A stretch of 64,000 nucleotides of DNA from Robiginitalea aestuariiviva. GTDB lineage: Bacteria > Bacteroidota > Bacteroidia > Flavobacteriales > Flavobacteriaceae. How positions within the stretch are numbered: the first letter of the stretch is position 1; every line of letters starts with the position of its first letter. The position numbers and the translations under genes are program-made. The notes below the pieces were generated by a model. It searched no databases. It was not told the DNA's origin and worked only from the letters and a program-made list of their open reading frames with translations. The DNA lies in assembly GCF_029537735.1 (NCBI RefSeq), contig NZ_JARPUQ010000002.1, forward strand, positions 611,536 to 675,535. Reading direction: 5' to 3'. This document shows positions 43,594-61,193 of this stretch, piece after piece.

Positions 43594-43712
43594 CAGACCT
43601 TTTTTAGCTAGGAATCAAGAGGAAAGAGGCCAAAAACACACATCAAAAAAAAACCGCTTCCGAAGGAATTGCGAACTCTTGAAGTACTTTGGAATACAAA
43701 CACCATCAGCAC

Positions 43713-58949: not shown

Positions 58950-59306
58950 ATGAAACCTTTTTTCAAAGCTTTTGCCGCGCTGATGGCCCTTTTGTTTGCC
59001 TGGGCTGCCTATGTTCAACTCAATGACCCGGATGCCGCCGTCTGGATTGGGATCTATTTGGTAGCCGCCCTGGGGTGCCTGGGGTTTGCCCTGGGAAAAC
59101 TCCCCTATTGGCTGGCACTGGTGTTGGGCATAGCCTATCTGGCTGGCACCTTTCTTTTCTGGCCGGAAAGTTTTGAAGGGGTTCGCTTTGGGGAGCGCGG
59201 AATGGCCAATATGAATATTGAACGCGGGCGGGAATCCCTGGGGCTGGCTATAACTGCCCTGGTATTCCTGCTACTCAGCTGGCGCATCCGCAGGGACCGG
59301 TCATAA
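58950..59306 (+). CDS. Transmembrane protein 220 (TMEM220) family
   Basis: The 118 residues contain four hydrophobic helices and the family opening FAWAAYVQLNDPDAAVWIGIY, with the closing NMNIERGRESLGLAIT segment. Bacterial TMEM220 proteins have no known function. The gene begins 9 bases after eboF on the same strand, so it is probably transcribed with the ebo cluster and could help move or process its membrane-associated product. Its last 6 bases overlap the end of dnaX. Confidence 0.83.
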   Translation: MKPFFKAFAALMALLFAWAAYVQLNDPDAAVWIGIYLVAALGCLGFALGKLPYWLALVLGIAYLAGTFLFWPESFEGVRFGERGMANMNIERGRESLGLAITALVFLLLSWRIRRDRS

Positions 59307-61193
59307 TTCCAGGTCGAAGGTTTTTCGCAGCAGATCCAGGGCCGGGTTTTGTTCCCGTAACTTCTCGTATTTCTCCTGGGGGGTAAAGGCGTACTGGCGT
59401 TCGGTTTCCTCGTTCACCGTGATCTTGAGGTGCAGGTGGTGGTTGTTCAGCTCCTGTTTCAGGTAGCGCATCAGCTCGTACTGATCCCGTTCCACCTCCT
59501 TTTTCATGGTACTGTTGGGTAGTTCTATCCAGATGGTGTGCGGCCCCTGCAGTTTGGGCGTATCCGTGCTCAGGCTGGCAGCCAGGATTTTCTTGCCAGA
59601 GGCTTCCAGGGTGCCCACAAATGCCTTCCAGTGTGTTTGCATGGCCTCCTCCGAAACCGGATCGTCCGGCAATTCCTCCGGCACCTCTTCGGCTTCGCGT
59701 TTGCGCTGTTCATGGGCTTTTTTGGCCCGGATGCTGGAAAGGGACAGGCCGGAGACGCCCTGCCGCTGCTGGGGGGTGGGCAGTGCTGGTCTGGCGGGTT
59801 GCTCCTCCGGGATCCCGGATACATCCGTAGGGGTTTCGGGTGCCCTGGCGGCCGTAGCATTTCCAGAAATTTCCGGGTTTTTGGCGGGTTCCGAGGCCTG
59901 GACTTCAGGGGTCGGTGGTTCCGACTTCATTTCCGACTCCGGATGTTCTGTAATGGCTTGGGGTTGCACGGGCTCTTCTGCCGGGGTTTCGGGCACTACA
60001 TGGGTGGGGGCGTCTTCCGGGTCTGGCACCTGGGTTTCAGGTGCAGCAGGTGTAGCCAGGGAGGGGGTAGTTTCGGGAACCACGGTAAACCGCGATGCCG
60101 GGATCAGGGGGGCGTCTCCCCTAGTCTTTTTTTTTTGGCCCTGTTCTACAGAGGCCAATTTCATCAGGCAGAGTTCTACCAGCAGGCGGTGGTTCTTGCT
60201 GCTTTTGTAATCCAGGTCGCATTGGTTGGCCAGGTCCAGGACTTCCAGCAGGAAGGGGCCGCTGCAGCGCTGGGATTGCTCCAGGTACCGCTGGCGCGTG
60301 GCTTCGCTGGTTTCCAGCAGGGCTACGGTATCCTGGTGGCGGCACACCATGAGATCCCGGAAGTGGGAGGCCAGCCCGCTGATGAAGTGGTGGCCGTCAA
60401 ACCCCTGGGCCAGTACCTGATTGAAATAGAGTAACAGGGCGGGGATATCCCCTTCCAGAATCAGGTCTGTGCTGTGGAAGTACACGTCTACATCCAGCAC
60501 GTTCAGGTTTTCGGCCACGGCCTTCCGGGTAAGCTGGTTCCCGGCAAAGCTCACCACCCGGTCAAAAATAGAGAGGGCGTCGCGCATGGCGCCGTCCGCC
60601 TTTTGGGCAATCATGTGCAGGGCTTCTTCCTCGGCTTCCACGCCTTGCTGCCCGGCGATGTACTTCAGGTAATCCACCCCGTCCTGTACCGTAATACGCC
60701 GAAAGTCAAAAATCTGGCAACGGGAGAGGATGGTGGGGATAATTTTGTGTTTTTCGGTGGTAGCCAGGATAAAAATGGCATGGGCCGGCGGCTCTTCCAG
60801 GGTTTTCAGAAAGGCGTTAAAGGCCGCCTGGGAAAGCATGTGCACCTCGTCGATGATGTACACCTTATATTTTCCTACCTGAGGGGGGATGCGCACCTGG
60901 TCAATCAGGTTGCGGATGTCGTCTACCGAATTGTTCGAAGCGGCATCGAGTTCAAAGATGTTGAATGCAAAGTCCTCCCCATCGCGCTGGTTGCCATCCT
61001 CATTGATCTTTTTCGCCAAAATCCGGGCGCAGGTGGTCTTTCCAACCCCCCGGGGTCCGCAAAACAAAAGGGCCTGGGCCAGGTGGTTGCTGGCAATCGC
61101 ATTTTCGAGGGTGCGCGTAATGGCCTGCTGGCCAATGACGTCCTCGAATTGCTGGGGGCGGTATTTCCGTGCCGATACGATAAAGGGTTCCAT
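59301..61193 (-). CDS. dnaX: DNA polymerase III subunits gamma and tau
   Basis: The 630-residue clamp-loader ATPase has Walker A GPRGVGKT near 45-52, Walker B IIDEVHM near 111-117 and the SRC motif (LSRCQIFDF). The zinc-binding cysteines of the E. coli protein are missing, as is usual in Bacteroidota. Domain III ends near residue 350, followed by a Pro/Glu/Thr-rich linker (about 365-455) and a tau-like C-terminal domain. An A10 run at 60127-60136 encodes QKKK (353-356). A -1 shift adds Asp and stops; a +1 shift adds seven residues and stops. A short gamma form is therefore likely. Confidence 0.95.
   Translation of the reverse strand: MEPFIVSARKYRPQQFEDVIGQQAITRTLENAIASNHLAQALLFCGPRGVGKTTCARILAKKINEDGNQRDGEDFAFNIFELDAASNNSVDDIRNLIDQVRIPPQVGKYKVYIIDEVHMLSQAAFNAFLKTLEEPPAHAIFILATTEKHKIIPTILSRCQIFDFRRITVQDGVDYLKYIAGQQGVEAEEEALHMIAQKADGAMRDALSIFDRVVSFAGNQLTRKAVAENLNVLDVDVYFHSTDLILEGDIPALLLYFNQVLAQGFDGHHFISGLASHFRDLMVCRHQDTVALLETSEATRQRYLEQSQRCSGPFLLEVLDLANQCDLDYKSSKNHRLLVELCLMKLASVEQGQKKKTRGDAPLIPASRFTVVPETTPSLATPAAPETQVPDPEDAPTHVVPETPAEEPVQPQAITEHPESEMKSEPPTPEVQASEPAKNPEISGNATAARAPETPTDVSGIPEEQPARPALPTPQQRQGVSGLSLSSIRAKKAHEQRKREAEEVPEELPDDPVSEEAMQTHWKAFVGTLEASGKKILAASLSTDTPKLQGPHTIWIELPNSTMKKEVERDQYELMRYLKQELNNHHLHLKITVNEETERQYAFTPQEKYEKLREQNPALDLLRKTFDLEL
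60126..60137 (-). promoter_or_regulatory. Slippery A10 run in dnaX, probable programmed frameshift or slippage site
   Basis: On the minus strand the reading frame passes CAA AAA AAA AAG ACT AGG. Slipping to -1 (or one extra A in the mRNA) gives AAA GAC TAG, a stop one codon after the run. Slipping to +1 gives AGA CTA GGG GAG ACG CCC CCC TGA. A small stem (AGGGG with CCCCT, 7-base loop) begins 4 bases downstream of the run. The position, at the end of the clamp-loader core, equals the job done by slippery sites in E. coli and Thermus dnaX. Confidence 0.72.

Follow-up and report, generated by a model that had tools for sequence, protein, structure and literature searches.

The need of bacteria for a short gamma form of DnaX has long been a matter of debate. 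Different routes to such a form have been described. According to the accessible text of PMC1088944 and of the review PMC5009743, transcriptional slippage on a run of nine A (A9) takes place in dnaX of Thermus thermophilus. The same accessible text of PMC5009743 describes -1 programmed ribosomal frameshifting at A_AAA_AAG for E. coli dnaX, and the formation of gamma by proteolysis for Caulobacter DnaX. Reversed two-ORF dnaX was reported for 17 genes of 12 genera, nine of them with A10, in the available part of PMC3711429, where the finding of both shift directions for a single gene function is also given as a mark of transcriptional realignment. In the available part of PMC3971599, dnaX is given only as present or absent.

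The stretch of DNA considered here (the window, 64,000 nucleotides from Robiginitalea aestuariiviva, family Flavobacteriaceae) contains a dnaX gene for the DNA polymerase III gamma/tau subunit on the minus strand at 59301..61193, with an ORF of 630 aa and tau as its plain product. Pfam matches of this product are PF13177, PF22608 and PF12169, and in the PDB it matches chains that bear the name DNA polymerase III subunit gamma/tau (E 4.7e-57). The part shared by gamma and tau, consisting by Pfam of the AAA+ ATPase, lid and domain III, lies at 60135..61193 (minus), and domain III (PF12169) ends at residue 353. Directly behind it, at 56% of the gene, the A10 run occupies 60127..60136 (minus) in the codons CAA AAA AAA AAG for Q353 K354 K355 K356, as a preliminary description of this DNA had reported. 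The run is followed by the tau-only linker and C-terminal part of the ORF (59304..60125, minus). It includes an A_AAA_AAG heptamer (60126..60132, minus) in the same phase as in E. coli dnaX.

Stops in both other frames were found where the preliminary description had placed them, their distances being counted here from the codon in contact with the run's end. The -1 frame closes with TAG at 60121..60123 (minus; AAA AAA GAC TAG), two codons past the run, and the +1 frame with TGA at 60104..60106 (minus; CTA GGG GAG ACG CCC CCC TGA), the seventh codon, which falls within the CTG ATC codons of a LIP motif. The statement that both frames stop at once is fair for -1 and strong for +1. As read from the window, a -1 shift or one extra A leads to a protein of 357 aa with the end QKKKD, and a +1 shift or one missing A to a protein of 362 aa with the end QKKRLGETPP. 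Because domain III ends at residue 353, both shorter products would be the clamp-loader core minus the tau tail, which fits the gamma of about 357 residues predicted earlier to end right behind this core. A small GC stem of a local fold is situated right behind the run (60105..60123, minus).

In our opinion, this A10 run is probably a programmed slippage site of the Thermus type making gamma beside tau, and two proteins very probably come from the one dnaX gene of the window, judging by the comparisons with relatives considered below. RNA polymerase would add or drop A's at A10, so that some dnaX mRNA would have 9, 11, 12 or other numbers of A's. Messages with 10 or 13 A's would give tau, and the remaining ones would reach a stop about two codons (-1) or about seven codons (+1) further on and give gamma, i.e., the clamp-loader core without the tau tail, with a counted length of about 356-363 aa. 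In Robiginitalea, -1 shifting of the ribosome at A_AAA_AAG may add to this. We infer that both products are made and that it is mainly RNA polymerase that slips; a tau:gamma ratio would be a deduction of the same kind.

Taken alone, the window could owe its A10 run and stops to chance, and the weight of the evidence is comparative. Three overlapping A9 matches were found in these 64 kb with a shuffle mean of 1.03, and 13 of 100 shuffles reached three. A second A9 run of the window is located at 43645-43653 (+). In the genome (3.2 Mb), A/T runs of ten or more number 13 when counted separately, and only that of dnaX keeps a distance of at least 60 codons from either end of a frame with 200 codons or more, by a 60-codon cut-off that was chosen after the list had been seen; the run next nearest to this cut-off stands 48 codons into a 552-codon frame (L432). 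When the next 24 codons of the window dnaX were shuffled synonymously, both stops came equally near in one of 300 cases. The earlier opinion that stops so close behind the run are unlikely to be a chance event holds by comparison across relatives and could fail for the single genome alone.

Close relatives have lost neither the run nor the -1 stop. All ten Robiginitalea genomes contain RAA AAA AAA AAG, exactly A10 followed by G, the -1 frame being closed within 2-3 codons and the +1 frame within 10. In the family Flavobacteriaceae, whose comparison the preliminary description had proposed, a run of at least nine A stands at the junction in 206 of 209 further genes (own genus apart), being exactly A10 in 175, and the off-frame stops are kept as well. 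For the main family sample one genome was drawn per genus, with the exception of the genus of the window. Of 199 genomes, 193 gave a match, 192 of the 193 matches were read (G121 was left out) and 189 of these 192 carry a run of at least nine A. A further 19 family genes, as well as all genes from the order, class and phylum, belong to a second set, in which a part of 292 matches was read and the rows read lean to the listed ones and to one pick per family. One dnaX locus per genome was counted, paralogue loci, second pieces and L001 being left out. The three family genes without such a run are those of G071 (contig end), G104 (A8) and G029 (no run). In the last one (L282) the plain frame is nevertheless closed at the junction (FVEK and stop), and this is either a gamma-only gene or an assembly error.

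Outside the family, a run of at least nine A at the junction was found in 6 of 6 genes of the order, 33 of 37 of the class and 22 of 52 from the rest of the phylum, a rough sample in which 30 of 52 genes have no run. Among the best 80 of 594 candidate named loci, 59 carry the run and 21 do not. The labels of the former include Muricauda, Aquimarina, Flavobacterium, Chryseobacterium, Pedobacter, Hymenobacter, Chitinophaga and Aureispira, and in 56 of these 59 loci one frame is long and the two others are closed within 10 codons. The labels Bacteroidales, Bacteroides, Bacteroidaceae, Prevotellaceae or Prevotella belong to 19 of the 21 loci without a run.

Exactly one long frame was established in 276 of 277 run-bearing genes; the sole gene with a second frame open (86 codons) is L230 (G241), and it was left out of the 276. 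Both non-tau frames are shut within 10 codons in 266 of 276 genes, against a null of 33% from 35,787 linker codons, related rows and null positions not being independent of each other; in the other ten genes an off-frame stop is more than 10 codons away. In the 170 family genes with tau in frame, a -1 stop index of 3 or less and a +1 stop index of 9 or less were each observed in 96.5%, with nulls of 32.8% and 49.3%, respectively. Synonymous shuffling of 215 family genes is weaker per gene, giving 23 genes at 0.05 or less and 202 at 0.5 or less with a mean of 0.20.

The codons that carry the +1 stop were considered separately. An IIP motif follows the run in 95 of the 170 family genes with tau in frame, and its first Ile is ATA in 93 of the 95, which creates TAA in the +1 frame; among the other Ile-Ile pairs of these gene cores, taken as controls, ATA occurs in 92 of 509 cases. 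By these codon counts, the synonymous codon ATA protects the +1 stop. In the genus, the +1 TGA is placed inside CTG/TTG ATY codons of the LIP motif in 8 of 10 genomes, and the single LIP gene with CTT (G006) has an alternative +1 stop that is nearer (index 5).

The frame that encodes the tail of tau differs from one relative to another. Tau is the plain product of 206 of the 276 genes; the other 70 need a shift to make it, with tau encoded in the -1 frame of 63 and the +1 frame of 7. For the family including the own genus (n = 216), tau is in frame in 170 genes, in the -1 frame in 39 and in the +1 frame in 7, i.e., 46 genes are shifted. When 130 residues of the tau C-terminus were used as a query, a same-strand counterpart was recognised at 233 of 280 dnaX-bearing loci, several of which come from one genome, 179 of these counterparts being in frame and 54 shifted.

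The preliminary description had left open the choice between transcriptional and ribosomal slippage, and the comparison of relatives favours the transcriptional kind. Among the explanations that compete with it, E. coli-type -1 ribosomal frameshifting at A_AAA_AAG, with the additional A's as an incidental feature, stands best and is nevertheless unlikely. The heptamer has the right phase in all ten genomes of the genus, each with its near -1 stop, and a ribosomal share is possible on account of this phase, the stem in the window and the lysine tRNA considered below. Against it, the heptamer is not conserved in the family: the fourth codon of 163 family genes with the run in the main phase is AAT in 90, AAG in 37, AAC in 21, AAA in 14 and ACT in 1, so that AAT or AAC follows in 111 of them. 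Relatives have the run in each of the three codon phases, an A7 would be enough for the ribosome and yet A10 is kept, +1 stops are kept too, and seven family genes have tau in the +1 frame. Transcriptional slippage is favoured because the run is met with in all three phases, stops are present in both directions and tau is encoded in either shifted frame; it accounts for ten A's, for the indifference to phase and for +1 stops, while E. coli-type shifting needs none of these. Shifts in both directions, the mark of transcriptional realignment mentioned above, were observed among the relatives examined.

The stimulators of ribosomal shifting were searched for around the run. In E. coli dnaX a Shine-Dalgarno stimulator is situated about 10 nt before the slip site; a Shine-Dalgarno-like string 18 to 5 nt before the run was detected in only 3 of 216 family genes, and such a stimulator was rejected on this count. 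Within 25 nt a string of this type is present in 130 of 216 genes, largely as GGAG touching the run. Of the 216 family genes, 111 have GATGGAG immediately 5' of the run, and this string is perhaps a part of the slippage context. Folds downstream of the run do not exceed controls in family genes (z averages -0.23, compared with -0.20 and -0.34 for control positions), and those of the genus, compared by eye, have no common shape. The stem noted in the preliminary description is present in the window as a good local fold, and it was rejected as a required part because a common fold is found in neither the genus nor the family; it is probably dispensable. In favour of the ribosome, only tRNA-Lys UUU was found, as in E. 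coli, by a tRNA family search in which 30 of 36 tRNA loci were scanned and 2 more were seen alongside (32 of 36 tRNAs read). The review PMC5009743, in its accessible text, connects the use of slippage by Thermus with the presence of two tRNAs for lysine, and ribosomal shifting in E. coli with the presence of a single one.

Slippage of RNA polymerase, which we prefer, can also be compared with an explanation by DNA-level contingency, with the run as a phase-variation tract, or by homopolymer assembly errors in the shifted genes. By parsimony on a FastTree of the shared core, at least 23 changes between in-frame and out-of-frame tau were counted in the family, and at least 14 with A10 genes only, although this tree is a quick one and its errors may inflate the number of swaps. 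Of the 46 shifted family genes, 11 have run lengths other than A10, and 5 of these 11 would be in frame if they had A10, so some of them may be sequencing errors. The remaining 35 have A10 and are not explained by such errors. In the genus g128, all 17 genomes read share A10 and encode tau in the -1 frame. Phase switching is improbable for an essential replication gene, and we consider this explanation very improbable in both its variants. On the genes compared here, the run outlasts changes of residue, codon phase and default product.

Conservation at the protein level only, that is, a Lys-rich linker that chances to be spelled with A's, is less probable still and has hardly any place among the serious explanations. 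It is true that KKK is common at the site and that AAA is the commoner Lys codon, with 75% elsewhere in the same family genes. However, the inner two codons are AAA AAA in 170 of 170 family genes with in-frame tau (own genus included), against 96 expected from their own Lys usage, and the run as a mere effect of Lys codons was rejected on these counts. For the ten genomes of the genus, the joint probability is about 10^-8.6 on the assumption of independent rows, which these rows are not. Of the runs of nine or more A in the 216 family genes, 216 lie at the junction and 8 in other places. As the fourth codon varies, the residue differs while the run mostly remains ten A, and this includes changes of K to N with A10 kept. 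Runs in other phases, off-frame stops and 70 genes whose plain frame ends near the run also disagree with a linker conserved for its lysines. Judging by the codon counts, the nucleotides, rather than the protein, are conserved at the run.

Finally, the formation of gamma by proteolysis of tau with a run that has no role, for which the accessible text on Caulobacter (PMC5009743) provides a precedent, is an equally slight prospect, leaving unexplained both the nucleotide-level signal and the genes whose plain frame stops at the run.

Relatives without an A run have other structures at the same junction. In the family f11 (L495-L524), which covers Bacteroides- and Prevotella-labelled records alike, GGGC-N3-4-GCCC was found at the junction in 25 of 30 loci (the best 30 of 40 matches), one pairing position of this pattern being allowed a T. 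The hairpin was also noticed in the named run-less loci L356, L366, L368, L376, L385, L388, L394, L395, L400 and L409. Together, f11 and the non-duplicate named loci give 33 hairpin genes with 14 loops, including TTCG and GCAA; their codons 2 and 3 vary, and the stems hardly vary, so that covariation provides no proof of pairing. Off-frame stops within 12 codons are more frequent in the hairpin genes than expected (79% against 39% for -1 and 76% against 41% for +1). A +1 stop within 3 codons was found in none of them (null 15%), and no slip site was recognised in the 33 genes examined. Among the five f11 loci without the GGGC hairpin, three have other possible hairpins (by eye), one has an A11 run and one has neither. 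The locus with A11 is L508 (G602), where gamma is in the plain frame, as if the A run and the hairpin replaced each other.

Three loci of MAGs labelled Bacteroidales/Bacteroidetes (L390, L393 and L406) have no A run and contain an in-frame TAG (TAG ATT GCW AGG) at codon 353-354, followed in the same frame by 189-254 open codons with a tau-like end; their cores are 74-83% identical. Stop-codon readthrough making tau is possible in these loci, to judge from their open frames. The pattern was found in 0 of 395 genomes of the phylum.

It may tentatively be suggested that the Bacteroidota junction is under steady selection for two products and that the signal is interchangeable, mostly an A9-A11 run with flipping of the default product, in f11 a hairpin, and in three MAGs an in-frame TAG. 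If this possibility proved true, the f11 hairpin and TAG readthrough would be candidates for new ways of splitting the output of dnaX.

The significance of the site is connected with its distribution. In nearly 190 genera of one family, and also outside it, the nucleotides of the run are conserved, and the two-product layout has persisted through an estimated 14 or more swaps of the plain product; taken together, this is strong evidence from evolution for a need of both products. Relatives with a swapped plain product represent natural pairs for tests of the mechanism. Where gamma is the plain product, gene callers would be expected to report a truncated DnaX with tau missing. The literature searched, with most subscription journals outside it, contained no A10 slippage site in dnaX for Flavobacteriaceae or across Bacteroidota, and nothing on a protected ATA codon or on repeated swaps. 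The spread may partly stand in the supplement of PMC3711429. The spread of the dnaX site and the swapping of the default product look new.

Among the known systems, Caulobacter DnaX has two forms, as is predicted for the window, and its mechanism is a protein-level one. The genus of the window shares with E. coli dnaX the heptamer in the same phase, and the -1 product of the window ends one codon later. Unlike E. coli, the family lacks a Shine-Dalgarno string near the corresponding position in 213 of 216 genes, and no fold beyond controls was found; the run in the family is longer than needed, the heptamer is not kept and +1 stops are kept. The reversed two-ORF dnaX of PMC3711429, as far as its available part goes, likewise has A10 at the junction, and the same layout was observed in 70 of 276 genes here, some of which may overlap the nine A10 genes of that paper; gamma is the plain product in that layout, whereas the window has tau in the plain frame.

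Thermus dnaX shares with that of the window a long A run, a single tau ORF and near stops in both other frames, together with a truncated gamma, which is predicted for the window. Its run is A9 and lies seven-eighths along the gene, according to the accessible text of PMC1088944, while that of the window is A10 at 56%, in another phylum. Varied numbers of A's in the mRNA and about equal amounts of gamma and tau also characterise the Thermus type, to which the dnaX of the window is likened here by its sequence. Summarizing these comparisons, it may be concluded that the dnaX of the window itself belongs to an already published kind, namely dnaX slippage.
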